DNA from: Arthrobacter globiformis
GTDB lineage: Bacteria > Actinomycetota > Actinomycetes > Actinomycetales > Micrococcaceae
DNA: 64,000 bases
NCBI RefSeq assembly: GCF_003261175.1
Contig: NZ_QLNP01000013.1
Span: 44,487 to 108,486 of the forward strand
Direction of reading: 5' to 3'
Under the pieces are notes generated by a model that saw nothing but the letters and a program-made list of their open reading frames with translations, made no database searches and had not been told where the DNA came from. This document shows, piece by piece, positions 45,846 to 61,832 of the stretch. The position numbers were made by a program, and so were the translations under genes. Every line of letters starts with the position of its first letter. Position 1 is the stretch's first letter.

Positions 45846-45939
45846 CCACCACGGATGGCGGAGTTCTATGTTGTGGGGACAACGGCATTCGTCCGGTCTC
45901 AGCAATATGCCACACACCGATTTCCTGAGTGGAGTACCC

Positions 45940-47229
45940 ATGAACGCTGGAGATGTTGCCTGGATCCTCGCAAGTTCTGCACTGGTGTGCATGATGATTC
46001 CCGCCCTGGCCCTCTTCTACGGAGGCATGGTGGGGTCGCGCCGGATCCTGAACATGATGATGATGTGCTTCGGCGGGGCCAGCCTGGTGGCCGTGCTGTG
46101 GGCGCTGTTCGGATACTCGATGGCCTTTGGCAATTCCGTGAACGGCCTGGGCCTGATCGGGGACGTCACGCAGTACGCAGGCCTCGAGCCGGTGCTGACG
46201 GACAACCCTGACGCCGCCCTGCCGGCAGCGCTTTTCACGGCCTTCCAGTTGTTTTTCGCCTGCGTCACCACCGCGCTGGTTGCCGGCGCGGCCGCAGGGC
46301 GGATGAAGTTTGGTGCCTGGATGGTGTTCGCCGGTGTGTGGGCCACGCTGGTCTACTTCCCCATCGCGCACTGGGTCTTCGCATTCAACTCCGCGGACGG
46401 CTCGGTGACGGGCGGCTGGATCGCCAACGGCATCAAGGCCATCGACTTCGCCGGCGGAACGGCCGTGCACATGAACGCCGGTGCCGCCGCCCTCGCCCTG
46501 GCACTGGTCCTGGGCCGCAGCTCCGGCTGGCCCAAGATGGAGCATTCGAAGCCCCACAGCCGCCCCCTGGTGCTGGTGGGCGCGGGCCTGCTCTGGGTGG
46601 GCTGGTTCGGGTTCAATGCCGGATCCGCGCTGACCGCCGGGCACTCGGCGTCGGTCGTCTTCCTCAACACGGCCGTGGCAGCGGCGGCGGGCCTGCTCGC
46701 CTGGGCGCTGGTGGAGCGCATGCGGCACGGCGCCACCACCAGCATGGGTGCCGCCTCGGGCCTGGTTTCCGCCCTCGTGGCCATCACCCCCGCCTGCGGT
46801 GCTGTCAGCCCGCTCGGCGCGGTGGCCATCGGCGCGATCGCCGGCGCCGTCTGCTCGCTGGCGATCGAATGGAAGTTCCGCCTCGGCTTCGATGACTCAC
46901 TGGACGTGGTGGGCGTGCACCTTGTGGGCGGCATCATCGGCACGCTGCTGATTGGCATCTTCGCCACTGACAGCGCGCCCAATGGAGTCAGCGGACTGCT
47001 GTACGGCGGCGGGCTGCAGCAGCTGGGCATCCAGACGCTCGCCACCGTTGCCGTGCTGGCCTACTCGTTCGGCCTGACCTGGGTGATCGCCAAGGTGGTG
47101 GACGTGGCCATGGGCCTGCGCATCCACGAACAAGACGAACTCCGCGGCATCGACCTCGCCGCGCACTCCGAGTTCGCCTACCTGACAGACGAAGACCCCG
47201 TGAACCTGGGCTCCTCGCCCAGGACCTGA
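45940..47229 (+). CDS. amt: Ammonium transporter
   Basis: 429-aa Amt/MEP channel protein with eleven expected spans. Family features: MMIPALALFYGGMVGSRRILNMMMM, AVLWALFGYSMAFGN, and the pore histidines in DFAGGTAVHMNAGAAALALAL and GVHLVGGIIGTLLIG. ATG 45940 (MNAGDVAWILASSALV) has TGGAG 10 bp upstream; an upstream frame to 45868 lacks hydrophobic character. No glnK follows. The final 52 bp overlap the converging flavoprotein gene, so the C-terminal tail is encoded on both strands. Confidence 0.94.
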   Translation: MNAGDVAWILASSALVCMMIPALALFYGGMVGSRRILNMMMMCFGGASLVAVLWALFGYSMAFGNSVNGLGLIGDVTQYAGLEPVLTDNPDAALPAALFTAFQLFFACVTTALVAGAAAGRMKFGAWMVFAGVWATLVYFPIAHWVFAFNSADGSVTGGWIANGIKAIDFAGGTAVHMNAGAAALALALVLGRSSGWPKMEHSKPHSRPLVLVGAGLLWVGWFGFNAGSALTAGHSASVVFLNTAVAAAAGLLAWALVERMRHGATTSMGAASGLVSALVAITPACGAVSPLGAVAIGAIAGAVCSLAIEWKFRLGFDDSLDVVGVHLVGGIIGTLLIGIFATDSAPNGVSGLLYGGGLQQLGIQTLATVAVLAYSFGLTWVIAKVVDVAMGLRIHEQDELRGIDLAAHSEFAYLTDEDPVNLGSSPRT

Positions 47230-49664
47230 GCCGGGTCGCCTCCAGGGAGAAAAGGTCCGCACAGGTCCTTCGTGAACGCCAGCGGCCCAATGGTCTCGGG
47301 GTCGGCGGCGAGGTCGAACTGCGCCGTGTACCCGGTGTTCAGGTACAGGTGCCTGGCCTCCGGCTGGCGCGGGCCCGTGGTGAGGTAGACGCTGCGGTAC
47401 CCGCGCCCGGCCGCCAGCCGCTCCAGTTCCGTCAGGACCCGCCGGGCCAGGCCGCGACGGCGGTGGGCCGAGTGTGTCCAGATCCGCTTGAACTCGGCGG
47501 TTTCCGCGTCGTAGCGGCGGAAGGCTCCGCCGGCCACGGACTGGCCGTTCTCCTGGAGGATCAGCAGCGCGCCGCCCGGCGCCTCGAATTCCTCGGCCGG
47601 GTATCTGTTCAGTTCCTCCGCGGCGGCGCCCCGGCCGAACAGGTCGCCGTAGCGGGAGTCGTACTCCGCGGCGAGCTCGTCCAGAAGGGGCCGGACCCGG
47701 GGATCGTGCATGGGCAGTTCGAGGACGGTGAGCGGAGAGCGTGACACTGCAGTGAGGATCCTTCGCGCCAGGGCGTCGTTCTCCCGGAACGGCGCCGCGT
47801 TGGTACCGGGCCGGGCAAACGCGCCCGCACCCCAGCCGGAGGTCCCGGGGCCGATTCCGAACAGACGGCTCCGGGTATCGCCGTCGCGGCCCACGATCTC
47901 GTGGCCAGGGGTGACCAGGAGCCGGCCAGTGGAATGCGCGCCGTCGGCGGTGAGCAGGTGCTGCTCAGCACCCAGGCCCTGGCCGTGCAGCGAACGGAGC
48001 AGCGGGTTGGCGGAGCGGGCCACGGCGGGACCGGGAAGCCTGGCCTCGATGAAGGCCTTCGCCCGGACGCTCACCGGTGACTGCGCGGACGTCGCCACGA
48101 ACTCGCCGGAGGCGTCGTCCGCGGCGACGGCAAGGCCCGGTCCCAGGAACTGCAGCAGTCCGGCACGGTGGACGGCCAGCATTTCGCGCAGCCGCTGCGG
48201 CGGCGGGCCGGAATCCACAAAGCTGAAGAACCCGTGCCACCAGCCGTGCACGTCCTCCTGCGAGCGCGCGCTCAGCCGCTCGGGCGGGACGATCCTGCCC
48301 AACTCCATGTACACCTTCAGCAGGGCCATGAACAGCGCCAGCGTTTCCGGGTGGTCGGGTCCCGTCCTAAGTTCGAGGTCATGCTCGATGTGGGCGGCCA
48401 CCGCCGCCTGGACATCATCGTGGCCGGCAAAGAGCCGCCCGCCGAACGGCTTGTCCAGCCGTTCGAGGTCCAGGTGCAGGTCTGCGTCCGGCACGGCCGC
48501 GGCGACGAGTTCGTGGCGCGCGCTGCTGTACCAGTCCAGCGCGGCAAACCGCTCCGCAAACCCGTCCCAGCCCAGCGCCACCCGCTCCGGGCTGCCCGTG
48601 AACAGCTCGCGGTAGTAGCCGTAGCCGGCGTCCTTCGCTATCAGGGGCCAGAGGTGGGTGCGGAAGTCCAGTTCGGCGTGCGCCGCCAGGAGCGCGCCCA
48701 CGGCATCGGCGGTGAAGAACCTCGGCGCCGCCGCCGGTTCACCGCGCAGGGCCACGGAGATCTTGGAGTGGAACGGCACACCGCGCCGCGACCCGGCCCA
48801 CAGCCTTGGCTCGGCTCCGGACGGAAGGTAGCGCAGCCCGCCGTCGGGCGTCTCCTCGAAACGGCCGCCGCGGCCCTCGGTGAGCAGCACCAGCAGATCC
48901 ACGAAGGCCAGGCCCATGCCGGAGACAATGATGTCCTGGCCGGGGGCGATCGCGGAATAGTCGACGTCGGTGGTGTAGCTGGGTGCCGCATGGAACCCGC
49001 CGTTCCTGGCAGCGAATGCGGACCAGCCGGCGGAGCGGGCATCCGGCTCGGCGTCGGTGTGCCCCACCGCGGTAACCACGGCGTCGGCGTGCAGCGTGCC
49101 GCCGCCGGCCAGCCGCACGCTGTACCCGCCGTCGTCGGGCTGCTGTTCGCCGCGCTCACCCTTCCGCGGTTCGCCCAGCGGTTCGATGCCGACGGCGGTG
49201 TCGCGGTGGACGGTGACCCGGACGTCGCTGCCGAGGGCGCGGACGGCGCGGCGGAAGAACCACTCAAGGTACTTGCTCTGCAGCTGGCGGGTGGCAAAGG
49301 AACCGTCCTTCAGGGAGCGCAGCTGTTCCTGCAGGTGCGGCGGCAGGGCCGGTGCGTCGGTGATGGAACCGTCCAGGATCCCGGCTGCCCAGGCAGCGAG
49401 CCCCGGCCCGTCGATGGCCGGCCCGTCGCAGACCACCGAGGAGTCGGTGAACATGGTGACGTCCGCCGCCGCGGAATTCATCATGAGGCCGGGCTCCTGG
49501 TCATAGCGCCAGATCCTGCCGGAACCGGGTTCATGCGGCTCCACGACGTGGATCTGCAGTGGCCCGACGGCCAGCCCGGGCCGGTTGGCGGCCAGCCGCT
49601 CGAGGATGCCGGCCGTGCGCGGGCCACCGCCAATGAAAACCACGGATGGGTGCTGCGCTGGCAT
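47178..49664 (-). CDS. FAD/NAD(P)-binding protein fused to a GNAT acetyltransferase
   Basis: 828-aa two-part protein. Residues 1-~640: FAD/NAD(P)-binding family (NAD_binding_9 type) with SVVFIGGGPRTAGILERLAA (Rossmann GxGxxG-like), HVVEPHEPGSGRIWRYDQEPGLMMNSAAADVTMF and DIIVSGMGLAFVDLLVLLTEGRGG. Residues ~665-815: GNAT domain with IWTHSAHRRRGLARRVLTELERLAAGRGYRSVYLTTGPRQPEARHLYLNTGYTA (acetyl-CoA loop R-R-x-G-L-A). ATG 49664 has AGGAG 8 bp upstream. Divergent from the amino-acid importer/flavoprotein operon. Such a fusion suggests an acetyl-transfer step linked to a redox step on one substrate. Confidence 0.83.
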   Translation of the reverse strand: MPAQHPSVVFIGGGPRTAGILERLAANRPGLAVGPLQIHVVEPHEPGSGRIWRYDQEPGLMMNSAAADVTMFTDSSVVCDGPAIDGPGLAAWAAGILDGSITDAPALPPHLQEQLRSLKDGSFATRQLQSKYLEWFFRRAVRALGSDVRVTVHRDTAVGIEPLGEPRKGERGEQQPDDGGYSVRLAGGGTLHADAVVTAVGHTDAEPDARSAGWSAFAARNGGFHAAPSYTTDVDYSAIAPGQDIIVSGMGLAFVDLLVLLTEGRGGRFEETPDGGLRYLPSGAEPRLWAGSRRGVPFHSKISVALRGEPAAAPRFFTADAVGALLAAHAELDFRTHLWPLIAKDAGYGYYRELFTGSPERVALGWDGFAERFAALDWYSSARHELVAAAVPDADLHLDLERLDKPFGGRLFAGHDDVQAAVAAHIEHDLELRTGPDHPETLALFMALLKVYMELGRIVPPERLSARSQEDVHGWWHGFFSFVDSGPPPQRLREMLAVHRAGLLQFLGPGLAVAADDASGEFVATSAQSPVSVRAKAFIEARLPGPAVARSANPLLRSLHGQGLGAEQHLLTADGAHSTGRLLVTPGHEIVGRDGDTRSRLFGIGPGTSGWGAGAFARPGTNAAPFRENDALARRILTAVSRSPLTVLELPMHDPRVRPLLDELAAEYDSRYGDLFGRGAAAEELNRYPAEEFEAPGGALLILQENGQSVAGGAFRRYDAETAEFKRIWTHSAHRRRGLARRVLTELERLAAGRGYRSVYLTTGPRQPEARHLYLNTGYTAQFDLAADPETIGPLAFTKDLCGPFLPGGDPAQVLGEEPRFTGSSSVR

Positions 49665-49924
49665 CGGAAACTCCTGGTGAGAAAGGGCCACGTGAAAACG
49701 GATTGGGCCCTCAATCTAGGGTCTGGACAAACCGCCGGTCGAGGGCCCTGTCACGGCCGTTCACCCCGCGTAACGCCGCGTAAATTCACGCAAGAATTCG
49801 ACTCATGACGCCCCGCTAAGCCACGTGAACGATTGCAACGGACCGCTTTGCCGGACCTGCCGGGCGCGCCTAGATTTGCAGCCAACTACCCCCGAAGCAC
49901 CAGCCGGAAGAAGCGAGATGGCGC
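49665..49924. other. Divergent intergenic region with direct repeat
   Basis: 260 bp without a gene between divergent units. It contains CCGCGTAA twice, at 49766-49773 and 49776-49783, a 10-bp-spaced direct repeat (one helical turn) in an AT-richer patch. Could bind a LysR- or Crp-type regulator for both units; no regulator is encoded nearby. Confidence 0.4.
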
Positions 49925-50980
49925 ATGAGTTCAGCAGCAACCAGGACGGCCCAGTCCGCCACTGAGACACCGTCTCCCACTGAGGCGCAGGCCCCGGAGA
50001 CCCAGGCCCCGGCTGTGCCCGCCGGCCCCGCGGACCTTCGTGCCGCCGTCGACTACGCCGACTACCGCCTGGTTCCTGCACGCCGTCCGTGGCGCTGGGT
50101 GGGCACGGTGCTGGTGGCGCTCGGAGTAGCGGCGGTGGCGTGGTCCCTGGCCACGAACCCGCGCTGGGAGTGGGGCGTGGTGGCCCAGTGGTTCACCGCC
50201 AAGTCCGTGGTGAACGGCCTGGTGGAAACCCTCAAGCTCACGGCCATCTCCGGAGTGCTCGGCTTCGTCCTGGGCTTCATCCTCGCCCTCATGCGGCTTT
50301 CCGCTTCACCGCTGCTGGTCTCCGTGTCCTGGACGTTCTCGTGGATCTTCCGCTCCACGCCACTGCTGGTCCAGATGCTCCTCTGGTACAACCTGGGCTA
50401 CCTCTACGAGAAGATCAGCCTGGGCATTCCGTTCACGGACATCCGCTTCTTCGAGGCGCAGACCACCACCCTGATCAGCCAGTTCGCTGCCGCCGTGCTC
50501 GGCCTGACACTGAACCAGGCCGCCTACTCGGCCGAGATCATCCGCGGCGGCATCCTGTCCGTGGACCAGGGCCAGCTCGAGGCAGCAGCCGCGTTGGGTA
50601 TTCCCGCCTGGCGCAGGTCCACCCGGATAGTGCTGCCCCAGGCCATGCGTGCCATCCTGCCCACGGCCTTCAACGAGATCATCGGCCTGGTGAAGGGCAC
50701 CTCCATCGTATACGTCCTGGCCTACTCGGAGCTCTTCTACACGGTCCAGGTGATTTACAACCGCACGCAGCAGGTCCTGCCGCTGCTGCTCGTGGCCACG
50801 CTCTGGTACGTGGTGATCACCTCCGTGCTCAGCGTGTTCCAGTACTACATCGAACGCCACTACTCCAAGGGAGCGCTGCGCACCCTGCCCCTCACACCGC
50901 TGCAGAAGGCCCGGAAGTTCTTCGCCACCCACGCCCCGGCCAGCACCACCGGACCCGCCAGCACCACCGGAAGGAAATGA
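49925..50980 (+). CDS. Polar amino-acid ABC transporter permease
   Basis: 351-aa HisMQ/GlnP-type permease. Long N-terminal cytoplasmic/linker part (~1-60), then spans from WVGTVLVALGVAAVAW. Family block: NGLVETLKLTAISGVLGFVLGFILALMRLS and EAAAALGIPAWRRSTRIVLPQAMRAILPTAFNEIIGLVKGTSIVYVLAYSELFY (EAA loop). A single permease gene suggests a homodimer. First gene of the operon; the ATPase begins 5 bp after its stop. Confidence 0.9.
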   Translation: MSSAATRTAQSATETPSPTEAQAPETQAPAVPAGPADLRAAVDYADYRLVPARRPWRWVGTVLVALGVAAVAWSLATNPRWEWGVVAQWFTAKSVVNGLVETLKLTAISGVLGFVLGFILALMRLSASPLLVSVSWTFSWIFRSTPLLVQMLLWYNLGYLYEKISLGIPFTDIRFFEAQTTTLISQFAAAVLGLTLNQAAYSAEIIRGGILSVDQGQLEAAAALGIPAWRRSTRIVLPQAMRAILPTAFNEIIGLVKGTSIVYVLAYSELFYTVQVIYNRTQQVLPLLLVATLWYVVITSVLSVFQYYIERHYSKGALRTLPLTPLQKARKFFATHAPASTTGPASTTGRK

Positions 50981-50985
50981 TTCCG

Positions 50986-51795
50986 ATGAGCACAACTCTT
51001 GAAGCCCCCGCCTCCACCCGCGGACTGGTGGAAATCACCAAGGTCCGGAAGTCCTTTGGCGCCACCGAGGTCCTGAAGGGCATCTCCCTGACGGTGGAGC
51101 CCGGCGGCGTGGCCGTCATCGTCGGCCCGTCCGGATCCGGAAAGTCCACACTGCTGCGGACCATCAACCATCTGGAAAAGGTGGATGCCGGGTTCATCGC
51201 CATCGACGGCCAGCTGGTGGGCTACCGGGTCAAGGGCAACAAGCTGCATGAGCTGCCGGAGCGCGACATCCTGAAGCAGCGCACCGAAATCGGCATGGTG
51301 TTCCAGAACTTCAACCTGTTCCCACACTTGACCGCGCTGGAGAACGTGACCGAGGCACCCGTCGTCGCGCAGGGACGGTCCCAGGCGGAGGCCCGCGAAC
51401 GGGCCCTGGAACTCCTGGACCGGGTGGGCCTGCTGGACCGCGCCGGTGCCTACCCCCGCCAGCTCTCCGGCGGCCAGCAGCAACGCGTCGCCATCGCCCG
51501 AGCGCTGGCCCTTGACCCCAAGATACTGCTCTTCGACGAGCCCACCTCCGCCCTCGACCCCGAACTGGTCAACGAAGTGCTGGACGTGATCCGCGAGCTG
51601 GCCAAGTCCGGCACCACCCTGATCATCGTCACCCATGAGATGGGTTTTGCCCGCGACGTGGCGGACACCGTGGTGTTCATGGACCAGGGCCAGATCGTCG
51701 AACAGGGCAAACCGCAGGACATTTTCACGAACCCGCGCGAAGTTCGCACCCGGAGTTTCTTCTCCAAGGTGATCGAACCGGCGTTCAACATCTAA
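50986..51795 (+). CDS. Polar amino-acid ABC transporter ATP-binding protein
   Basis: 269-aa GlnQ/HisP-type ATPase. Walker [10 protein letters not shown], signature [15 protein letters not shown], Walker [18 protein letters not shown]-loop [10 protein letters not shown] 50986 chosen (AAGGA 10 bp upstream); ATG 50977 is too close to the ribosome site. The segment [32 protein letters not shown] is the usual structurally diverse region. Stop is 9 bp before the binding-protein start. Confidence 0.93.
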
Positions 51796-51804
51796 GGATC
51801 CCCC

Positions 51805-52854
51805 ATGGCACTCTTCTCCAGCCAGCGCCGCAGCGGCGCGCTGCCCGCCGTCGTGCTTCTCGGCACGCTGCTTAGCACCGTGGCCCTGTCCGCCTGCTCC
51901 GATCCCGGCGCCGCCGCCTCCGGCGGTTCAACGGGCGGTTCCGCATCAGGTGCGACGACGGCGGCCCGCAACGGCGTCGTCTACAACACCTCCCCCGACC
52001 AGCAGCGGATCCGCGCCGGAAAGGACGCCGCGCTGGCCGCGAAGGTGCCTGCGCTGATCGGCAAGGACGGCAAGCTCACCGTGGCCACCACCGCCGGTTC
52101 CATCCCGCTGTCCTTCCACGCCACGGACGACAAGACGCCCATCGGCTCCGAGCTGGACATCGCCCAGCTCGTGGCGGACAAACTGGGCCTGGAGCTGGAC
52201 ATCCAGGTGACGTCCTGGGAGAACTGGCCCCTGAAGACCCAGTCGGGCGACTTCGAGGCCGTGTTCTCCAACGTGGGCATCAACAAGGACCGGGTGAAGC
52301 TGTTCGACTTCGCCAGCTACCGCGCCGCGTACATGGGCTTCGAGGCAAAAAAGTCCTCGTCCTACACCATCCAGGGGGCCGACGACATCTCCGGCCTCAA
52401 GGTCTCCGTCGGCTCCGGCACCAACCAGGAGAAGATCCTGCTGGCCTGGAACAAGGAGCTCGAAGCCAAGGGCAAGGATCCGGCAGTGCTCCAGTACTAC
52501 TCGTCCGACGCCGACACCATCCTTGCGCTGTCCTCCGGCCGGACCGATCTTAACATCGCGCCGTACCCCTCCACGGTGTACCGGGAGAACACCCGGGATG
52601 ACCTGAAGATCGTCGGCAAGGTCAACGCCGGATGGCCGTCCGAGACCCTGGTGGCCGCCACCTCGCTCAAGGGCAACGGACTGGCGCCGGTGATCACCGA
52701 GGCACTGAACTCCGCCATCAAGGACGGCTCCTACGCCAAGGTGCTGGACCGCTGGGGACTGTCCGAAGAGGCCCTGCCGGAATCCAAGACGGTGACCGAG
52801 GCCAACTTTGCTTCGACCCAGACGGGTTCTTCACAGACTGGCTCGTCAAAGTGA
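51805..52854 (+). CDS. Amino-acid-type ABC binding lipoprotein
   Basis: 349-aa family 3 (SBP_bac_3) lipoprotein. Lipobox LSAC (C31), Gly/Ser-rich linker, then KLTVATTAGSIPLSFHATDDKTPIGSELDIAQLVADKLGLELDIQVTSWENWPLKTQSGDFEAVFSNVGINKDRVKLFDFASYRAAYMGF, a classical polar-amino-acid binding pattern. The usual ligand-carboxylate Arg site around VGINKDR is present. Stop overlaps the next GTG (GTGA), so flavoprotein 1 is coupled to it. Confidence 0.9.
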   Translation: MALFSSQRRSGALPAVVLLGTLLSTVALSACSDPGAAASGGSTGGSASGATTAARNGVVYNTSPDQQRIRAGKDAALAAKVPALIGKDGKLTVATTAGSIPLSFHATDDKTPIGSELDIAQLVADKLGLELDIQVTSWENWPLKTQSGDFEAVFSNVGINKDRVKLFDFASYRAAYMGFEAKKSSSYTIQGADDISGLKVSVGSGTNQEKILLAWNKELEAKGKDPAVLQYYSSDADTILALSSGRTDLNIAPYPSTVYRENTRDDLKIVGKVNAGWPSETLVAATSLKGNGLAPVITEALNSAIKDGSYAKVLDRWGLSEEALPESKTVTEANFASTQTGSSQTGSSK

Positions 52855-54017
52855 AGTTCCAGATCCTGGACATCATTCCGCACCTGAAGAATCCGGTCAC
52901 CGGAGAAATCGTCTCTACCGCCGACCGGCTGAACCAGGTGGTCCAGACCGCACAGCTCGCCGAGAAGCTGGGCTACGACAGCTTCTCCGTGGGCGAGCGG
53001 CATGCCGGGGAGTTCATCTCCTCTTCCCCCACCACGGTGCTCGCCGCCATCGCGGCAGTCACCTCCCGGATAAGGCTGCAGAGCGGCGTCACCGTCCTCG
53101 CCGTCCTGGACCCCGTGCGCGTGGCCGAAGACTATGCCACGATCGACCAGCTCAGCCGGGGGCGGCTGGAACTGGTGATCGGTAAGGGCAACGAAGTGCT
53201 GCAGTACCCGCTCTTCGGGCTGGACCTGGCGGGCCAGTGGGACCTGCTGGAGGAGAAATACGCACTGCTGCGCCGGCTCTGGCGCGAGGAGGACATCACC
53301 TGGTCCGGCCGCTTCCGGCCGGCGCTCACCGAACCCACTACAACGACGCCACGCCCCTTCGCCGGGTCTCCCCGGATTTGGCACGGGTCGGCTACAACAC
53401 TGACGTCGGCGGCACTTGCGGCGCGCTGGGGCGACCCACTGTTCACCGCGAACGCCATCCAGCCGCGGGAGAACTACAAGGTGCTCATCGATCATTACGT
53501 GGCGGAGTACGAGCGGCACGGCCACGACCCGCGGCACCGCTACCTGGGCTCGGGCAGCGGGGCCGGCGGGGTGTTTATCGCTGATACCACGCAGCAGGCC
53601 AAGCGCCAGTACGGCCCGGTCTACGAGGCCCTCACGGCTGCACGCAACGTCCCCGGCAACAACTCGCCGTTCCGGGACATCGACCACGCGGTGGCAGAGG
53701 GTCCGGCACTCGTCGGCAGCCCGGAACAGGTGATCGACAAGATCCTCAGCTACCACGCGCTGTACGGGCATGACCTGCTGTCGATCTCGCTGCCCACCAC
53801 CCTGCCCTTCGAACAGCAGCTGGAGATCCTTGAGCGGTTCGCGCTCGAGGTGATCCCGGCCGTGCGCGCTGCAGCCCCCACCACACTCTGGGAATCCGCG
53901 GATCCATTCGGCGGCCGTCCCGGCTTTGCGGGAGCCGCCGAACCGGACGCCGCCTCCGCCGTCAGCACCGACCACGACACCTACAGGAGCGACCATGCCC
54001 ACGTCTACGCACACTGA
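52851..54017 (+). CDS. LLM class flavin-dependent oxidoreductase 1
   Basis: 388-aa luciferase-like monooxygenase. Features: LAEKLGYDSFSVGERHAGEFISSSPTTVLAAIAAVTSRIRLQSGVTVLAVLDPVRVAEDYATIDQLSRGRLELVIGKGNE, DLLEEKYALLRRLWRE, and ENYKVLIDHYVAEYERHGHD. Starts at GTG 52851 overlapping the binding-protein stop, so it is translationally coupled to import. Would need reduced FMN from a separate reductase, not present in the operon. C-terminal ~25 residues overlap the DUF1684 gene start. Confidence 0.88.
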   Translation: MKFQILDIIPHLKNPVTGEIVSTADRLNQVVQTAQLAEKLGYDSFSVGERHAGEFISSSPTTVLAAIAAVTSRIRLQSGVTVLAVLDPVRVAEDYATIDQLSRGRLELVIGKGNEVLQYPLFGLDLAGQWDLLEEKYALLRRLWREEDITWSGRFRPALTEPTTTTPRPFAGSPRIWHGSATTLTSAALAARWGDPLFTANAIQPRENYKVLIDHYVAEYERHGHDPRHRYLGSGSGAGGVFIADTTQQAKRQYGPVYEALTAARNVPGNNSPFRDIDHAVAEGPALVGSPEQVIDKILSYHALYGHDLLSISLPTTLPFEQQLEILERFALEVIPAVRAAAPTTLWESADPFGGRPGFAGAAEPDAASAVSTDHDTYRSDHAHVYAH

Positions 54018-54864
54018 AACGGATGCCCGCTGGTCGGGCACCACCGCCTTCGCGGCCGAGTGGGAGCAGTGGCACGCCGCGCATGAGCGCCGCCGCGCCG
54101 ATCCGCACGGCTTCCTCGCCGTCACCCACCTCCACTGGCTGGGTGCGGAACCCTCCCGGCTCGAGGGCGTTCCGGGCCTCTGGAGCGTGCAGGATGACGC
54201 CGTCACGGTGGTTTTGGAGGCCGGTGAAAGCCTGCTGCGGGACGGCCGGGAGCTGAACGACAACTCCGTTAAGGACGGAGGTACGGCCGTCGTCTTCGAT
54301 CCGATCGCCGAGCGGGAGGGCATCAACCTCACGGCGGGTCCCGCCGTCGTCGAACTCGCCAAGCGCGGCGGTGAATACATCGTTCGGCCCCGGCACCCGG
54401 AGAACCCTCTGCTCAACGAGTACCGCGGCACGCCGGCCTACGCCCCGGACCCGCGCTACGCCGTCGACGGCGAATACGTGGCCTTCGAGTCGCCCCGGCC
54501 GACGACCGTCGGGGCCGCCGTCGAGGGCATCGTGCACGTGTACGAGGCACCCGGCGAGATCCGGTTCACGCTGGAAGGCGAGGACCTCATGCTCACGGCC
54601 TTCAACGGCCACGCACCGGGCACGTTGTCTGTGCTGTTCACGGACGCAACGTCTGGCAAGACCACCTACGCAGCGAACCGCACGCTCACGGTGGGCCCAC
54701 CGGACGCCGACGGCCGCGTAAACCTGGACTTCAACCGCGCGGTGAACCTGCCGTGCGCCTACACCGACCTCGCCACCTGCCCGCTGCCGCCGGCCGAAAA
54801 CCGCCTGACTGTGGCCATCGAAGCGGGCGAACAGAACCCCCACGAAAGGCAGGCTGAACAGTGA
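53995..54864 (+). CDS. DUF1684 domain protein
   Basis: 289-aa cytoplasmic protein of the DUF1684 family. The signature near the C-terminus, NLDFNRAVNLPCAYTDLATCPLPPAENRLTVAIEAGE, and the N-terminal FLAVTHLHWLGAEPSRLEGVPGLWSV match the family. No enzymatic activity is established for it. ATG 53995 has CAGGAG 6 bp upstream and lies 23 bp inside flavoprotein 1. Consistent co-location with flavin monooxygenases suggests it acts on their product or supplies a cofactor (inference). Confidence 0.85.
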   Translation: MPTSTHTETDARWSGTTAFAAEWEQWHAAHERRRADPHGFLAVTHLHWLGAEPSRLEGVPGLWSVQDDAVTVVLEAGESLLRDGRELNDNSVKDGGTAVVFDPIAEREGINLTAGPAVVELAKRGGEYIVRPRHPENPLLNEYRGTPAYAPDPRYAVDGEYVAFESPRPTTVGAAVEGIVHVYEAPGEIRFTLEGEDLMLTAFNGHAPGTLSVLFTDATSGKTTYAANRTLTVGPPDADGRVNLDFNRAVNLPCAYTDLATCPLPPAENRLTVAIEAGEQNPHERQAEQ

Positions 54865-56036
54865 GCACTGCAGCCCAGGGTTTCCTCGCCCTCGAACTGG
54901 ACGGCGACGGAGCGCACCCCGCCGCCTGGCGCAAGGCGCGGCACACTCCAGCCGAACTGCTCGACGGAACGCGCGTCCGTGCCACGGTGCTGGCCACGGA
55001 ATCGGCCGGGTTCCACGTGGCCACGTTCGCGGACGGACCGCTGACGCCCGCGTCTTCCGATCCCGGCGGCCGGGACATCCCTGGCGGGCTGAACGCCCTG
55101 CAGCGTGCCGCCTTTGCCGGGCCTGTTACAGGCTCCATCGTGCTGGTCCCCGAGGTGGACACCGTGTATACGGAGCCGTTCCACATCTCCACGCAGCTGG
55201 CCAGCCTGGACTACGTGTCCGGCGGCCGCGCCGGGTGGCTGGTGGCGGCGTCGGACCGGGCGGCGGATGCTGCCGCCGTCGGACGTTCTGTTGTCGCCTC
55301 TGACGCCGTGGGCCGGGAAGCCGCCGATTCCATCGAGGTCAGCCGCCGGCTCTGGGACTCCTGGGAGGACGACGCCGTGGTCCGCGACGTCGCCACCGGC
55401 CGGTACATCGATGTCGACAAGCTGCATTACGTCGATTTCGAGAGCACGGTCGAGTCCGGCGGTGCCGGCTACTCGGTCAAGGGCCCGTCCATCATTCCCC
55501 GGCCGCTGCAGGGCCAGCTGCCGGTCCTCGCGCCGGCCGGCCTGCTGGGCGCGGACCAGCTGTCCGCAGGGGCGGTCGACGCCGTGCTCGTCTCCGCGCC
55601 CACGCCCGAGCTCCTGGCCGGTGAGATCGCCGAGGCCCGCGCCGCCGCTCCCGCGGCGGCCATCATCGCCGAGCTCGACGTCGTTCTCGACGCCCGCGGG
55701 CAAAGCGCCGCCGGGCGCCTCGCCGAGCTGGATGGGCACACTCCCTGGCAGAGCAGCCGTGCCCGTTTCGTCGGCACCGCTGCGGAGCTCACCGGGCTAC
55801 TGGCCTCCATTTTGGAAACTGCCGACGGCGTTCGCCTCCACCCGGCGGTCCTGGACGTGGACCTGGAGGAGCTGGCCCAGCTGGTGCTTCCCGCCCTCCG
55901 GCGCCGGGGCGTGCTCGCCCCGCAGCAGACGGGTTCCACCTTCCGACACCTGCTGGGCCTGCAGCGTCCGGCCAGCCGGTATGCCGCCGTATCCGTGCCG
56001 TCCGCGGCCTCCGCGGCCTCCGCGGCCGAGAACTAG
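54861..56036 (+). CDS. LLM class flavin-dependent oxidoreductase 2 (divergent NtaA-like)
   Basis: 391-aa luciferase-fold protein starting at GTG 54861 (GTGA overlap). NtaA-like segments remain (FHISTQLASLDYVSGGRAGWLVAAS, SIEVSRRLWDSWEDDAVVRDVATGRYIDVDKLHYVDFESTVESGGAGYSVKGPSIIPRPLQGQLPVLAPAG) but the N-terminal ~90 residues are shorter and much altered, and the NxxT-type flavin segment of flavoprotein 3 is replaced by SDRAADAAAVG. It may be a non-catalytic partner of flavoprotein 3 or act on a different substrate. Confidence 0.78.
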   Translation: MSTAAQGFLALELDGDGAHPAAWRKARHTPAELLDGTRVRATVLATESAGFHVATFADGPLTPASSDPGGRDIPGGLNALQRAAFAGPVTGSIVLVPEVDTVYTEPFHISTQLASLDYVSGGRAGWLVAASDRAADAAAVGRSVVASDAVGREAADSIEVSRRLWDSWEDDAVVRDVATGRYIDVDKLHYVDFESTVESGGAGYSVKGPSIIPRPLQGQLPVLAPAGLLGADQLSAGAVDAVLVSAPTPELLAGEIAEARAAAPAAAIIAELDVVLDARGQSAAGRLAELDGHTPWQSSRARFVGTAAELTGLLASILETADGVRLHPAVLDVDLEELAQLVLPALRRRGVLAPQQTGSTFRHLLGLQRPASRYAAVSVPSAASAASAAEN

Positions 56037-56046
56037 GGAGAGACCC

Positions 56047-57477
56047 ATGACAGACACCCACATCGGCAACGGCTTCGTGCCCTCCGGCCAGCTTCAGCTC
56101 GGCATCTTCTTCCAGGGCGTGAACTCGGGCACGGTCTGGAAGTCGCCGGAATCCGGGTCGCAAACGGACTTCGAGTCCTTCCGCCGGATCGCCCAGACCG
56201 CTGAACGGGGCCTGTTCGCCGCGTTCTTCCTCGGTGAGGGGCTGCGTCTCCGCGAGCACCTCGGCCGCCCGCACGCGCTGGACGTCGTCGGCCGGCCGGA
56301 CGCGCAGACCATGCTGGCCGCGTTGGCGTCCGTGACCAGCCGCATCGGGCTGGTGGCCACGCAGAACACCACGTACAACGACCCCGCCGACCTGGCACAC
56401 CGGCTGTCCAGCCTGGACCTGCTCTCCGGCGGCCGAGCTGCCTGGAACGTGGTCACCACGGACAATGCCTGGACCGGGGCGAACTTCCGCCGCGGCGGCT
56501 ACCTGGATCACGCCGACCGGTACGTCCACGCCGAAGCGTTCGTCAGTACGGCCAAGCGGATCTGGGATTCCTGGGAGGACGGCGCCATCGCTTCGAGCCC
56601 CGGCGCCTCCGCCTGGGCCGCGCCCGGTTCGGCCCGGCCCGTGCGCCACGAGGGCAAGCACTACACGGTGGACTACGTGCCCCGGCTGCCGCGCAGTGCC
56701 CAGTACCGGCCGGTGCTGTTCCAGGCCGGCGACTCGCCGGAGGGACGCGACTTCGCTGCCCGGCAGGCCGACGTCATCTTCTCCGCCCACCCTAAGCTCG
56801 ACGACGCCCTCGACTTCCGCCGCGACATCGTCGAGCGCGCGGTCAGGGCCGGGCGCAGCGCGAACGACCTCAAGATCATGCCCGCCAGCGAGTTCATTCT
56901 CGCGGCCACCCCGCAGGAAGCCCTCGAGAAGAAGAACTGGGTGCGGAGCCTGCAGATCGGCCCCGAGCAGGCCATCGCCTACCTCGAACAGTTCTGGGGC
57001 CGCGAGCTCCAGGGCTTCGATCCGGACGGGCCGGTGCCGGACATCGACCCCGTGGTGGAGGAAACCTCCGAGACACGCGGCAGCGGTTTCCACGGCGCCA
57101 AGGCGAAGCAGCTGGCGGATCAGTGGCGCGCCGAAGCCAAAGACAAGGGCCTCAGCATCCGGCAGTTTGTCTCCGCCCGGACCAGCCGCGGGGATTCCAG
57201 CTTCACGGGTTCCTACGCCGAGGTGGCCGACCGGCTGGCCGAATACGCCCGCACCGGTGCAGTGGACGGCTTCAACATCTCGCCGTGGCTGATCCCCACC
57301 GGCCTGGACGACATCGTCAACCACCTCGTCCCGGCACTGCAGGAGCGCGCTGTCTACCCCACGGAGTACGCCGGATCCACTCTGCGCGAGAACCTCGGCC
57401 TCGCGACGCCGGTCCGGCAAGAAGCCGGCGCCGGGAACACCGCCGTCGGGAACACCGCCGTCGAACTGGAAGTCTGA
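56047..57477 (+). CDS. NtaA/DmoA family FMN-dependent monooxygenase (flavoprotein 3)
   Basis: 476-aa two-component monooxygenase of the NtaA/SnaA/DszA/DmoA type. Diagnostic motifs: LGIFFQGVNSGTVWK, LATQNTTYNDPADLAHRLSSLDLLSGGRAAWNVVTTDNAWTGANFRRGGYLDHADRYVHAEAFVSTAKRIWDSWEDGA, and HYTVDYVPRLPRSAQYRPVLFQAGDSPEGRDFAARQADVIFS. ATG 56047 has GGGAGAG upstream. Family members cleave C-S or C-N bonds using FMNH2. The C-terminal GNTAVGNTAVELEV shows a small duplication. Confidence 0.92.
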   Translation: MTDTHIGNGFVPSGQLQLGIFFQGVNSGTVWKSPESGSQTDFESFRRIAQTAERGLFAAFFLGEGLRLREHLGRPHALDVVGRPDAQTMLAALASVTSRIGLVATQNTTYNDPADLAHRLSSLDLLSGGRAAWNVVTTDNAWTGANFRRGGYLDHADRYVHAEAFVSTAKRIWDSWEDGAIASSPGASAWAAPGSARPVRHEGKHYTVDYVPRLPRSAQYRPVLFQAGDSPEGRDFAARQADVIFSAHPKLDDALDFRRDIVERAVRAGRSANDLKIMPASEFILAATPQEALEKKNWVRSLQIGPEQAIAYLEQFWGRELQGFDPDGPVPDIDPVVEETSETRGSGFHGAKAKQLADQWRAEAKDKGLSIRQFVSARTSRGDSSFTGSYAEVADRLAEYARTGAVDGFNISPWLIPTGLDDIVNHLVPALQERAVYPTEYAGSTLRENLGLATPVRQEAGAGNTAVGNTAVELEV

Positions 57478-57481
57478 GTAC

Positions 57482-57586
57482 ATGGCTGACGACGGCGGCC
57501 GGGACGACCGCGAGGGGAACGCTGAGGCTGCCGCCGCTGCCGATACCATCCGGCTCCAGCTGACCGTCCGGGAGCTGCTCCTCTAG
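57482..57586 (+). CDS. Putative 34-residue ORF at operon end
   Basis: MADDGGRDDREGNAEAAAAA then DTIRLQLTVRELLL. Acidic, low complexity. It begins 4 bp after flavoprotein 3, suggesting co-translation, but there is no domain and it may be noise. Confidence 0.35.
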   Translation: MADDGGRDDREGNAEAAAAADTIRLQLTVRELLL

Positions 57587-57595
57587 AAAACCCCA

Positions 57596-58396
57596 TCAGT
57601 GCGCGGCTCCGGCGGGTACCGCAAGAGCCAGGAAGTCCTCGATCCAGGTCTGCACCCGGGCGTCGTCCAGGTGCAGACCATGCCGGCCGCCGTCGACCTG
57701 GATCAGCCGCGAGTCCGGAATCCGCTCCGCCATCATGACGGCGTTGGCAACGGGCGAAAGGGCATCTTCATTGCCGTGGATGATCAACGCCGGGGCCTGG
57801 ATGGACGGAAGGACGTCCCAGGCATCGTGCAGCCGGCTCGCCCGGAAGTGCCGGCTCTTGACCGTCGCAGACGCCTGCACCCGGAAAAACGCGGCAACGG
57901 CCGCGGGATTCTCCCGCGCCCAGGCGGGGCTGAAAAACAAGGGCGCCATCCGGGCAGGGTCCGTGCTGATGAGGGCGGCGGTGGCGGAAGGATCGCGCCC
58001 CACTCCCCCGGCCTCGCCGGCACTCGTCGCGGCCAGGACCAGCGACGCCACCCGGACAGGGAAGTCCACCGCCATCCTCTGTGCGACGCGGCCGCCCATC
58101 GAATGCCCATAGATGTGCGCCTTGGCGACGCCGGCGGCATCAAGAACCGCAACCGCGTCCGCTGCGAAAGCCCGCGTGGTGTAGTTTTCCGGGCGGCCTT
58201 CCGTACTCGCGCCGATGCCGCGGTGGTCGAAGCGGATGACCCGGAATGAAGGGGCCAGGCCGGGCACCACCGGATCCCAGCCGGATATTCCCGTAGCCTG
58301 GCCCGCCACCAGCAGCAGCGGTTCGCCCTGGCCTTCCTCTGTCCAGGCGAGCTCCGCTCCGTCGGAGGCGACCGCCTTTTTCAACGTCAAGGTCAC
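57596..58396 (-). CDS. Alpha/beta hydrolase
   Basis: 266-aa cytoplasmic hydrolase. Oxyanion strand WTEEGQGEPLLLVAGQATGISGWDPVVPGLAPSFRVIRFDHRGIGAS, nucleophile elbow GHSMGG (S99), acid HGNED (D211) and base GGRHGLH (H239) form a complete triad. GTG 58396 with a weak GCAGG site. Converges on the flavoprotein operon. Substrate unknown; similar to esterases and 3-oxoadipate enol-lactonase relatives. Confidence 0.87.
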   Translation of the reverse strand: MTLTLKKAVASDGAELAWTEEGQGEPLLLVAGQATGISGWDPVVPGLAPSFRVIRFDHRGIGASTEGRPENYTTRAFAADAVAVLDAAGVAKAHIYGHSMGGRVAQRMAVDFPVRVASLVLAATSAGEAGGVGRDPSATAALISTDPARMAPLFFSPAWARENPAAVAAFFRVQASATVKSRHFRASRLHDAWDVLPSIQAPALIIHGNEDALSPVANAVMMAERIPDSRLIQVDGGRHGLHLDDARVQTWIEDFLALAVPAGAAH

Positions 58397-58526: not shown

Positions 58527-59336
58527 TCAGGAAGCCTTCGCGTCTGCTCCGTCGCTCCAGGTCATCGCCGGCTGGGTTTCGACGTTGTTGAACGTGTAGA
58601 GGTGGATGCCCGCAGGCGCAGGATCGATTGCGGCCAGTTCGGACACCAGGGACCGGGATGAGTAGCTGCCGGCATTCAGGAGCCCGCGGGCGAGGGGCCC
58701 CTTGCGGTTCAGGAACTTCAACGATGGGCCTACCCCGATCTTGGTGGCCAGCGCGATCAGTTTGGCCCTCGGGACGGCCCCGGCAACGCCCGCCCAGATG
58801 GGAAGGTCGACGCCCTCGCGGCGCAGCAGTTCGGCATACCAGCCGATCCTGGGCGCCGAGAAGCACATCTGGGTCACCACGTTCGAGGCCAGATGCTGTT
58901 TCTCCAGCAATGCGTCGAGCATCTGCAGCTCGTTGCACTTCGGGTGGCCTTCCGGGTATCCGGCGACGCCGATGGCCATGGTCCCGCCGGTCAGGTCGGC
59001 GATGTCCTCAATGAGCCGGCCGCTGCTGCCGTAGGGACCTGCAGCCTCCGGAGCGTCCCCTCCGATCGCGAAAACCTCCGTGATCCCTGCAGCTTCGCAG
59101 TCACGGAGCATGCGCGCCAGCTGGGCGCGGCTCTCGATGCTTCGCGCGGCAAGATGGGGAATCACCTTGTAGCCGAGCCGGCCAAGCTGGACCGAGGCCC
59201 GCACGGTGGTCTCGACCCCGTGGTGCGGGAGGCAGGTCACGGTCAGCGTTGACTTGGCGGAAACGTACGTCTGGACTTTGGCAACAATGCCGTCGGTGGG
59301 AATGATCTCCAGGCGCACAGGCAATTGGTTCGTCAT
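58527..59336 (-). CDS. Methylenetetrahydrofolate reductase family protein
   Basis: 269-aa TIM-barrel protein of the MTHFR family, interconverting 5,10-methylene- and 5-methyl-tetrahydrofolate. Visible: LTVTCLPHHGVETTVRASVQLGRLGYKVIPHLAARSIESRAQLARMLRDCEAAGITEVFAIGGDAPEAAGPYGSS and TQMCFSAPRIGWYAELLRREGVDLPIWAGVAGAV. Short for MetF but complete for this subclass. ATG 59336 with CTGGAG. Last gene of permease-purU-MTHFR; with purU and gcvP nearby it probably serves methyl-folate flow in glycine or methylamine-type catabolism rather than methionine synthesis. Confidence 0.85.
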   Translation of the reverse strand: MTNQLPVRLEIIPTDGIVAKVQTYVSAKSTLTVTCLPHHGVETTVRASVQLGRLGYKVIPHLAARSIESRAQLARMLRDCEAAGITEVFAIGGDAPEAAGPYGSSGRLIEDIADLTGGTMAIGVAGYPEGHPKCNELQMLDALLEKQHLASNVVTQMCFSAPRIGWYAELLRREGVDLPIWAGVAGAVPRAKLIALATKIGVGPSLKFLNRKGPLARGLLNAGSYSSRSLVSELAAIDPAPAGIHLYTFNNVETQPAMTWSDGADAKAS

Positions 59337-59367
59337 GAGCAACTCCAGGTCTGGTTGGATTGGCTTG

Positions 59368-60303
59368 TCAGCGGAGGATGACCGTGCGGTTCCCGGACAA
59401 AATGATTCTTCCTTCGGCGTGCCAGCGAACAGCGTTCGTCAGGGCCTTGCACTCCGCGTCCTTGCCCACAGACACCAGATCCGCGGGGGTGTAGGTGTGG
59501 TCGACCTCAATCACCTGCTGCGCGATGATCGGCCCCTCATCAAGCTCTGAATTTACGTAGTGGGCCGTGGCGCCGACCGTCTTAACTCCGCGCTCATGCG
59601 CCTGGTGGTACGGTTTGGCGCCCTTGAAGCTGGGCAGGAAGGAGTGGTGGATGTTGATGGCCCTGCCGGCGAGCCGTGCGGTGGCCGAGTCGCTGAGAAC
59701 CTGCATGTAGCGGGCCAGTACCACCAGTTCAACGTCATAGTCATCCACCAGTCCAAGAAGCTTGGCCTCCGCCTCGGCCTTGGTCTCCGGCGTCACGGGG
59801 ATGTGGTGGAACGGGACCCCGTGCCAGGCCGCGAGCCCTTCGAGGTCCGCGTGGTTGGACACCACCGCCGCGATCTCGACCGGCAGTTCGCCATTACGGG
59901 CGCGCACCAGCAGGTCGTTGAGGCAGTGATCGTACTTGGACACCATCACCAGGATCCGCTGCTTGCGGTCGTGGCGCTCCAGCCGCCAGTCCATGCTCCA
60001 TTGACCTGCCAGCGGTGCGAAGCTGTCCCGGAGCTGTTCGACGGCGGCGGTGCCTCCGGTCGAGGCGAAGTGGACCCTCATGAAGAAGTGCCCGGCGGTG
60101 CGGTCGCCGAACTGCTTGAGGTCAACGATGTAGCACTCCTGCCTGAGCAGGAAATCCGCGACCGACTGGACGATTCCCAGCGAGTCCGGACAGTGGAAGG
60201 TGAGCACGAACTCCCCGCCGCCAGCGGGATCCTGGGGCCCGCTTTCCCGCCCCTCCGCCGTCGCCCGGCCCTCCGCCGTCGGCCTTTCCTCTGTCCTGAT
60301 CAT
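59368..60303 (-). CDS. purU: Formyltetrahydrofolate deformylase
   Basis: 311-aa enzyme hydrolysing 10-formyl-THF to formate and THF. N-terminal ACT-like regulatory domain (~30-115: FVLTFHCPDSLGIVQSVADFLLRQECYIVDLKQF) and a formyltransferase-fold catalytic domain with VVLARYMQVLS and INIHHSFLPSFKGAKPYHQAHERGVKTVGATAHYV (catalytic Asn-His region) and a later Asp. ATG 60303 overlaps the permease stop (TGATG); a GTG at 60306 is possible. Residues 8-25 are a repetitive TAEGRATAEGRES tract. Confidence 0.93.
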   Translation of the reverse strand: MIRTEERPTAEGRATAEGRESGPQDPAGGGEFVLTFHCPDSLGIVQSVADFLLRQECYIVDLKQFGDRTAGHFFMRVHFASTGGTAAVEQLRDSFAPLAGQWSMDWRLERHDRKQRILVMVSKYDHCLNDLLVRARNGELPVEIAAVVSNHADLEGLAAWHGVPFHHIPVTPETKAEAEAKLLGLVDDYDVELVVLARYMQVLSDSATARLAGRAINIHHSFLPSFKGAKPYHQAHERGVKTVGATAHYVNSELDEGPIIAQQVIEVDHTYTPADLVSVGKDAECKALTNAVRWHAEGRIILSGNRTVILR

Positions 60304-61790
60304 CACTTGACGCTTTCCTTCTCCTCGAGACGCCGGCTCGCATGCTCGCGGGCGGCGGTTTCCTCAGCCTGGAGTTCATCCTGGAAGGCTGCGTAGCGGG
60401 CCAGGTGCGCGGGCCGGCGGCGCAGAACCAGCCAGGCCGCACCGAGCAGGACGAACCAGACGGGGGTGACCAGCAGGGCGGTCAGGGTGTCGGGCTGGGT
60501 GGTCAGGGTCCACAACACGAAGGCGAAGAACGCGAAGACCACCCACACCATGGGGATGCCGCCGGGCATCTTGAACTTGGAGGCCGTGTGGAGGTGCGGG
60601 CGGCGGCGCCGGAAGGCGATGTAACTGGCGAGGATGATCGACCAGACGAAGACGAAGCAGACGGCGGAAACGGTGGTGACCATGTCGAACGCCTTGCCGA
60701 CGTCCTGGCCGGCGTACATGAGCACTACGCCGGAGAGCAGCAGCACACAGGACAGGAACAGGGCGTTGTTGGGTACCTTCCGGCGGGACAGGTTGCCGAA
60801 GGCGGCAGGTGCGTCGCCTTCCTGGGCCAGGCCGTAGACCATGCGGGAGGTGGAGTAGATTCCGGAGTTGGCCGAGGACATCGCCGAGGTGAGCACCACG
60901 AGGTTGACCACCGTGGCGGCGGCTCCGAGCCCAGCCAGCGAGAACATCGCAATGAACGGGCTGTGGCCTGCGGCGAACTGGGTCCAGGGCGTGACGGACA
61001 TCAGGATGATGAGGGCGCCCACGTAGAAGAGCAGCACACGGATCGGAATGGAGTTGATGGCCTTGGGAAGGTTCTTCTCCGGGTTCTTGGCCTCCGCGGC
61101 CGTGGTGCCCACTAGTTCAATGCCCACAAAAGCGAACACGGCGATCTGGAAGCCGGCCACAAAACCCATGAATTCATTGGGGAAGAAGCCTCCATGGCTC
61201 CACAGGTTGGCGAAGCTTGCCTGTCCGGCGTCGCTCTGGAAGCCACTGAAGATCATGAACATGCCCACAATGATCAGGGCGGCGATGGCGATGATTTTGA
61301 TGAGGGCGAACCAGAATTCGGTTTCACCGAACGCCTTGACCGTGGCGAGGTTCAGCACCAGCAGGATGGCCACGGTGGCCAGGCCCGGGATCCACAGCGG
61401 CAGTCCGGGCCAGAGCTCGCGGGAGTACCCGGCGATGGCGATAACGTCCGCGATCCCGGTAATCACCCAGCAGAACCAGTAGGTCCATCCGGTGAAGAAC
61501 CCCGCCCACGGCCCCAGCAGGTCGGCGGCGAAATCGCTGAAAGACTTGTAGTTCAGGTTGCTCAACAGCAGCTCACCCATGGCCCGCATGACGAAGAAGA
61601 GCATGAAGCCGATGATCATGTACACGAAGATCACGGACGGCCCGGCCGCGGAAATGGTCTTGCCGGAGCCCATGAACAGGCCCGTGCCAATGGCACCGCC
61701 GATGGCGATCAATTGGATGTGCCGGTTGCTCAGCTGCCGCTCCAGGCGGGGAGCCTCACCGGCTGGGGAGGCGGGGGGATGAATCGTCAT
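60303..61790 (-). CDS. APC-family amino-acid permease (CycA-like)
   Basis: 495-aa, 12-span amino-acid permease. Family features: RHIQLIAIGGAIGTGLFMGSGKTISAAGPSVIFVYMIIGFMLFFVMRAMGELLL (span 1 with GAIGTGLF), FAFVGIELVGTTAAEAKNPEKNLPKAINSIP and SANSGIYSTSRMVYGLA. CycA-type members carry glycine, D-serine and D-alanine. ATG 61790 chosen (GGAG 7 bp upstream). It lies directly downstream of a tandem glycine riboswitch, supporting glycine as a substrate. First gene of permease-purU-MTHFR. Confidence 0.9.
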   Translation of the reverse strand: MTIHPPASPAGEAPRLERQLSNRHIQLIAIGGAIGTGLFMGSGKTISAAGPSVIFVYMIIGFMLFFVMRAMGELLLSNLNYKSFSDFAADLLGPWAGFFTGWTYWFCWVITGIADVIAIAGYSRELWPGLPLWIPGLATVAILLVLNLATVKAFGETEFWFALIKIIAIAALIIVGMFMIFSGFQSDAGQASFANLWSHGGFFPNEFMGFVAGFQIAVFAFVGIELVGTTAAEAKNPEKNLPKAINSIPIRVLLFYVGALIILMSVTPWTQFAAGHSPFIAMFSLAGLGAAATVVNLVVLTSAMSSANSGIYSTSRMVYGLAQEGDAPAAFGNLSRRKVPNNALFLSCVLLLSGVVLMYAGQDVGKAFDMVTTVSAVCFVFVWSIILASYIAFRRRRPHLHTASKFKMPGGIPMVWVVFAFFAFVLWTLTTQPDTLTALLVTPVWFVLLGAAWLVLRRRPAHLARYAAFQDELQAEETAAREHASRRLEEKESVK

Positions 61791-61832
61791 GAGGAACTCC
61801 ATCGTTCGGTGGCCATAGCCACACTGATTCGG

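Follow-up and report, generated by a model that had tools for sequence, protein, structure and literature searches.

The cmo pathway of Bacillus subtilis, as described in the available part of PMC10863075, proceeds through acetylation, sulfoxidation by CmoO and C-S bond cleavage by CmoJ (YtnJ). The S-(2-succino)cysteine (scm, yxe) pathway of the same organism follows an acetylate-then-cleave scheme with an ATP-binding cassette (ABC) importer, an acetyltransferase and a flavin mononucleotide (FMN) monooxygenase (available parts of PMC9706529 and PMC12757645). Here we describe a locus of Arthrobacter globiformis that shares features with both. It lies in a 64-kb window of the source genome (G000:C75:44487-108486), the whole stretch analysed, to which all positions refer. 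The locus combines an amino-acid importer operon, which also encodes three luciferase-like proteins (LLM1, LLM2 and LLM3) and a DUF1684 protein, with a divergent gene for a flavin adenine dinucleotide (FAD)/nicotinamide adenine dinucleotide (phosphate) (NAD(P)) enzyme fused to a GNAT acetyltransferase. Its gene set, conservation and shared operator, and the residue losses in its enzymes, were established computationally. We predict with high confidence that it is a sulfur-regulated organosulfur operon; that its substrate is an S-substituted cysteine, processed in the order proposed below, is the reading we moderately favour.

Gene set, recurrence and shared operator

The fusion gene (47178-49664, minus strand) encodes an FAD/NAD(P) class B monooxygenase-like domain (residues 1-640) followed by GNAT (about 641-828), assigned by homology and by Pfam/NCBIfam models (NAD_binding_9, 119.6 bits; Acetyltransf_1, 49.9 bits). 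Divergent to it, the rightward operon (49925-57477, plus strand) encodes in order a polar amino-acid (cystine-type) ABC permease (49925-50980), an amino-acid-type ABC ATPase (50977-51795), a solute-binding protein (SBP) of the SBP_bac_3 family (51805-52854), LLM1 (52851-54017, start approximate), the DUF1684 protein (53995-54864; domain match 155.9 bits), LLM2 (54861-56036) and LLM3 (56047-57477), with neighbours that overlap or lie no more than 11 bases apart. The top NCBIfam model for the permease was the cystine permease PRK15100 (136.4 bits, under the cut-off of 300), and the ATPase matched EhuA (330.8 bits) and TcyN (319.1 bits), both under cut-off. LLM3 belongs to the NtaA/DmoA family of FMN monooxygenases (377.9 bits, over cut-off), LLM2 matched that family weakly (159.7 bits versus a cut-off of 279.7), and the top family for LLM1 was CE1758 (254 bits versus 479.1). 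These Pfam/NCBIfam assignments bear out the genes and positions of an earlier sequence-only reading of this DNA, including the overlaps and the divergent fusion.

When the fused protein was searched against 149 genomes of the family with a match threshold of 1e-20, 134 genomes matched, and 31 of the 149 did so at 1e-90 or better. Most of the 134 matches represent an FAD paralogue of approximately 30-38% identity, which we set aside: in the three paralogue loci inspected, L064-L066, the neighbours differ from the gene set studied here. Those neighbours are common to all three loci (L066 is G000:C2:38501-58500). Scanning named genomes with an FAD-domain profile identified at least 80 loci in Arthrobacter, Pseudarthrobacter, Paenarthrobacter, Sinomonas, Paeniglutamicibacter, Streptomyces, Kitasatospora, Amycolatopsis, Cryobacterium and others. 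The 105 loci analysed comprise 79 of the 80 named-genome loci and 26 others; omitted were L086-L088, L161 (too short), L057 (a near copy of L056), double-fetched loci and L080, the last for no good reason, as its inclusion would have strengthened the sulfur side. No partner genes were found within 15-20 kb of the Streptomyces-type homologues L086-L088 (33-35%).

Counted with bit-score thresholds of our own choosing, permease and ATPase were present in 87 of the 105 loci and a GNAT relative in 83, fused to the FAD enzyme in five of these; as the FAD gene served as query, its own presence carries no weight, and loci that are related do not count as independent events. The 87 importer loci contained GNAT in 78 cases, an SBP in 80 (at least two in 25), LLM2 in 67 and LLM3 in 68, with both in 66 and adjacent on the same strand in 63. 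DUF1684 was found in 42 of them, 41 with LLM3; in the remaining locus, L084, the LLM3 match is merely a short one. An SsuD-like enzyme outside the window's operon, LLM4, which scores under the SsuD cut-off, occurred in 18 importer loci; either LLM3 or LLM4 was present in 81, both in five and neither in six. As a rule, the front end (importer, mostly GNAT, and FAD enzyme) pairs with one of two cleavage modules. LLM1 is the variable part (39 of 87): it is missing from the closest relative (L034/L089), which makes it accessory. Many named genomes show this gene order, so the grouping is more than chance, and the neighbourhood search in other actinobacteria that the sequence-only reading had called for recovered the gene set in Micrococcaceae, Streptomyces and others. 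Scanning 394 genomes of the class with LLM3 returned three matches, at a threshold (1e-170) too strict to inform.

Alignment of 23 intergenic regions identified a conserved operator, GTMAC-N5-TTCAC-N5-GTMAC-N5-GT, with half-sites 10 bp apart; its single match in the window is exact and lies between the divergent genes (49750-49781). When up to three mismatches were allowed, 48 of the 56 intergenic regions contained it, where mononucleotide shuffles predict 0.1; as the pattern derives from 23 of these related regions, this shows conservation and is not an independent test. The independent test was the rest of the source genome at up to two mismatches, with the reversed pattern as control: the genome holds five matches, and the reversed pattern had none. 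One match is the locus itself. One lies approximately 44 bp before a homologue of cysG that passes the uroporphyrinogen methyltransferase model, and one immediately before ssuA, in a cluster that also holds CysH, CysD and CysN, all four over cut-off. Another is 109 bp before the gene for an NMT1-type binding protein, with a TauD-like gene (213.9 bits versus a cut-off of 313) after it; the gene divergent to it across the operator is not sulfur-like. A further match sits behind metZ (the O-succinylhomoserine sulfhydrylase gene) and not at an obvious promoter. Allowing one mismatch, a shorter pattern again found three of the four sites outside the system.

In 12 relatives, 28 operator matches were found in nine genomes, 12 at the system itself (some overlapping) and 16 elsewhere; of the latter, five lie before CysG, three before SsuA, one before a TauA-like gene and one between a cysteine/cystathionine-synthase-like gene (under cut-offs) and a divergent transporter gene. 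By eye, the promoters of cysG and ssuA have their half-sites upstream of a candidate -10 element near the start codon, an arrangement that suits an activator. A palindrome search for the operator gave nothing. The octamer CCTAGATT occurs only twice in the 64 kb, both times flanking the operator and in divergent orientation (two or more occurrences in 4 of 100 shuffles), and may provide the -10 elements of promoters towards the fusion gene (49713-49720, minus strand) and towards the importer operon (49869-49876, plus strand). The operator with two mismatches and identical letters is also present at L205, L215 and L216 (related genomes G047, G019 and G091), where no sulfur gene was recognised.

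Sulfur genes also lie near the system at some loci. By hand count they were identified near 21 of 98 system loci and in 1 of 20 control regions (five genomes), after we dropped flavin reductase and SfnG matches below 200 bits (cross-matches of LLM4); the raw match to 17 sulfur or flavin-reductase queries was 34 of 98, and as the queries came mostly from the counted loci, these counts are supporting evidence only. The Streptomyces-type locus L080 adjoins SfnG (559.6 bits, cut-off 383), SsuA (202.2, cut-off 163.5) and a sulfite-dehydrogenase-like gene (200.3, below the cut-off of 420). Other neighbours are cystathionine gamma-synthase at L040 (593.2 bits, cut-off 513), MsuE at L144 (257, cut-off 212.5), SsuA at L149 (202.3, cut-off 163.5), MetE at L041 (1003, cut-off 541), TauD at L158 (297.2, slightly under the cut-off of 313) and a DszC/SfnB-like gene at L167, far under cut-off.

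Enzymes of the locus

A profile search with the FAD domain identified one solved relative, 8CP2/8CP5 (E 1.1e-143); the single sequence aligned to 8CP2 over residues 7-638 (5.5e-81). The 8CP2 enzyme is the L-aspartate N-hydroxylase of Streptomyces sp. V2, for which the available text of PMC10404684 describes W51 in the flavin sandwich, N62 over C4a, and R13, R276, N413, R416 and R577 as aspartate contacts. We mapped the residues named in that text onto the 105 loci, the alignment of the helical domain being less sure than the rest. The flavin-site residues W51 (100 of 105, five gaps) and N62 (101, four gaps) are retained, as are the aspartate contacts R577 (all 105) and R13 (84, 19 gaps), whereas R276, N413 and R416 are replaced, judged by the six commonest letters per site. 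Among the sulfate-binding residues, R266 is lysine throughout, R412 is mostly tyrosine (81) and R409 is retained in 13 loci; R593, at the entrance to the tunnel, is present in 99. This pattern indicates a probable class B monooxygenase that belongs to the aspartate N-hydroxylase family and has an altered substrate site, and suggests an amino-acid-like substrate with a side chain unlike that of aspartate. We infer S- rather than N-oxygenation: the amine, once N-acetylated, would be blocked, and cmo chemistry, in the available part of PMC10863075, needs a sulfoxide. GNAT matched solved structures weakly (best 1yx0, 2.6e-6). The sequence-only reading had proposed a fused redox/acetyl module; 8CP2 homology refines its redox part to a class B monooxygenase, and in the 105 other loci the fusion was seen in five.

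The nearest solved structure to LLM3 is YtnJ/MoxC (CmoJ; 1.6e-68), with 35.4% identity compared with 34.2% to 3SDO (named nitrilotriacetate monooxygenase) and 34.2% to BdsA, a margin too small to assign a subfamily. LLM3 retains the residues common to these three proteins. Most of these residues, which we take to form the flavin site, are lost in LLM2 (N134, T137, N146, R158, Q226 and S230 among others). Most of 70 LLM2 sequences retain a DxxS-G-GR motif and, at the C terminus, an R-x-x-L-G-L motif. On this basis LLM2 is probably a non-catalytic partner subunit of LLM3. We rejected LLM2 as an active third monooxygenase, since residues invariant in active relatives are lost. Entry 7E36 contains two different chains, with LLM2 closer to chain A and LLM3 to chain B, and is a possible precedent for a hetero-pair. 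All three luciferase-like proteins read from the sequence are therefore present, but not as equals: the one at 54861-56036 is a degenerate relative of the neighbouring LLM3.

In the DUF1684 protein, C254 and C262, which form a Cx7C motif, are invariant in 23 of 23 sequences. Its predicted model (mean predicted local distance difference test score 86.2) matches homologous uncharacterised haloarchaeal proteins, one with mercury bound. HVO_1043 of Haloferax is assigned to a thiol-relay group for its Cx7C motif in the available part of PMC9426492. By analogy, DUF1684 is a candidate thiol redox partner that may act as a sulfenate reductase via this pair. The source genome carries two further DUF1684 genes.

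Two M20D deacetylases over cut-off, with five weaker matches besides, are encoded on other contigs of the source genome. The suggestion that DUF1684 or the hydrolase at 57596-58396 replaces the missing amidohydrolase found no support: the invariant Cx7C points to thiol redox, so we rejected DUF1684 as a deacetylase, and the hydrolase was dropped as a component, with none in 105 loci at E 1e-10. The ammonium transporter (45868-47229), whose 3' end overlaps that of the fusion gene, was likewise rejected as a component (4 of 105 loci). On the minus strand, 58527-61802 encodes methylenetetrahydrofolate-reductase-like, formyl-transferase-like and amino-acid permease genes, perhaps a one-carbon operon.

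Proposed reaction order and rival explanations

The reading as organosulfur salvage is supported by the operator common to sulfate and sulfonate assimilation genes and by the sulfur neighbours of some loci; this part of the sequence-only proposal of S-modified-cysteine salvage stands, as does the likeness to ytm-ytn logic (importer, GNAT, YtnJ-like LLM). In the order that we infer for what is probably a sulfur-starvation operon, an S-substituted amino acid, most likely an S-substituted cysteine, would be imported via the cystine-type ABC system and N-acetylated by GNAT. The FAD/NADPH enzyme would then oxygenate the thioether sulfur, taking over the job of CmoO, and LLM3, the FMN enzyme, paired with an LLM2 subunit, would cleave the C-S bond in a CmoJ-like manner to yield an aldehyde and N-acetylcysteine sulfenate. 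DUF1684 could reduce the sulfenate through its Cx7C pair, and an unlinked M20 enzyme would remove the acetyl group. We put forward only tentatively the complete scheme of an N-hydroxylase scaffold turned S-oxygenase (GNAT-fused in some Arthrobacter), a luciferase-like C-S lyase that is a heteromer including one non-catalytic subunit, and a DUF1684 sulfenate reductase. If true, it would be a third way to recover cysteine and would give DUF1684 its first pathway role.

Several observations weigh against this interpretation. The sole solved relative of the FAD enzyme is an N-hydroxylase and not an S-oxygenase, R13, R577 and the outer R593 are retained, and the identity margin of LLM3 counts here as well. 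Nine of the 87 importer loci show no GNAT. Actinobacteria use mycothiol, and mycothiol S-conjugates are released as N-acetyl-cysteine conjugates; such conjugates could make GNAT dispensable in some species. No relative of the two M20D enzymes was found in the 105 loci (tblastn, E 1e-10), a search that other kinds of deacetylase would escape. Seven Amycolatopsis loci hold the FAD gene without partners, and LLM2/LLM3 also occur without it: a reverse search with LLM2 (above 150 bits) gave matches lacking a close FAD gene in G016 and G001, where the pair shares 20 kb with a cystathionine gamma-synthase relative and, in G001, also with an O-acetylhomoserine sulfhydrylase relative; in G137 a second pair sits in a sulfur island. 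The operator pattern was drawn from 23 of the regions later counted, and the sulfur queries mostly from the loci that they were used to score, favouring the 48/56 and 21/98 counts, respectively. The one extra site of the shorter pattern (C53:49273) has no recognised sulfur gene, 6 of the 16 matches outside the system in relatives have no assigned gene, and 3 of the 12 relatives (G085, G100 and G116) lack a match even with two mismatches allowed. Across all 12 relatives the reversed pattern was matched 12 times, versus those 16, so operator support rests on where matches lie and not on their number.

Two of these settings were described further. The Amycolatopsis FAD homologues (L128-L130, L147, L152, L156 and L160; 46-48%) have no partner above thresholds within approximately 10 kb. 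The G137 island (L241, C1:1822001-1842000) contains LLM2 and LLM3 (57% and 67%) together with an LLM4-like enzyme, a permease resembling MetI, a protein that by eye looks like a rhodanese, a cysteine/cystathionine-synthase-like gene adjoined by the operator pattern, and a peptide-type ABC importer whose SBP is TIGR04028-like, under cut-off.

Among the alternatives, the system might handle another organosulfur class, such as methionine sulfone, S-methylmethionine or amino-sulfonates including cysteate, and would then release the sulfur as sulfite or methanethiol instead of cysteine. The SfnG, SsuA and sulfite-dehydrogenase-like neighbours of L080, the SsuD-like LLM4 and the proximity of some loci to MetE, O-acetylhomoserine sulfhydrylase or cystathionine gamma-synthase fit this idea; however, the permease most resembles cystine permeases (under cut-off), 63 of the 68 LLM3 loci lack LLM4, and the loss of R276, N413 and R416 argues against an acidic side chain like that of cysteate. 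We regard it as rather unlikely. An N-oxidative route, in which the FAD enzyme hydroxylates the amine, GNAT acetylates the hydroxylamine (hydroxamate-type) and the LLMs degrade the product, would account for the homology to an amino-acid N-hydroxylase with W51, N62, R13 and R577 retained, and for the fused or adjacent GNAT, but is improbable given the sulfur operator and the loss of three of five aspartate contacts. Catabolism of nitrilotriacetate, ethylenediaminetetraacetate or another aminopolycarboxylate for nitrogen could be read from the NtaA/DmoA family membership of LLM3, its identity to 3SDO and the ammonium transporter adjacent in the window. That transporter accompanies only four loci and the operator is common to cys, ssu and TauD-type genes, which makes this explanation highly improbable; the conserved neighbourhoods, which the sequence-only reading had named as a check on nitrilotriacetate, do not point to chelators or nitrogen.

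Comparison with known systems

The use of amino-acid-bound sulfur by soil actinobacteria is little described in the literature that we examined, and among the open-licence papers listed on DUF1684, succino-cysteine, S-alkyl-cysteine, Corynebacterium seu/ssu and N-hydroxylases with sulfur we did not find this gene set described, which is no proof of absence. The locus offers a defined gene set with an operator common to sulfate and sulfonate assimilation. It also proposes roles that can be tested for three proteins without an assigned one: DUF1684, the degenerate luciferase-like subunit and this branch of the N-hydroxylase family.

Like the cmo locus (ytmI-ytnM), whose gene content we in part presume, the system combines a cystine-type importer, a GNAT and an NtaA-family LLM with YtnJ as its closest solved structure. 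It differs in having a class B FAD/NADPH enzyme that replaces or accompanies CmoO, in the degenerate partner LLM2 and DUF1684, and in lacking a linked M20 deacetylase. With the scm (yxe) pathway it has in common an ABC importer, an acetyltransferase, an FMN monooxygenase and the proposed acetylate-then-cleave scheme; in this comparison of gene content it is likewise set apart by the lack of a linked deacetylase and by the additional FAD enzyme, LLM2 and DUF1684. The FAD domain shares full-length homology and W51, N62, R13 and R577 with the L-aspartate N-hydroxylase family (FzmM, CreE and 8CP2); unlike these enzymes, it has R276, N413, R416 and R412 replaced and a lysine for R266, and it occurs with a GNAT partner in a setting predicted to be sulfur-regulated. 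The C-S cleaving enzymes DszA/BdsA, SsuD and SfnG are related through LLM3, at the identity to BdsA given above, and through the SsuD-like LLM4 of some loci, whereas the surroundings here are an amino-acid importer and a GNAT and not sulfonate transport.

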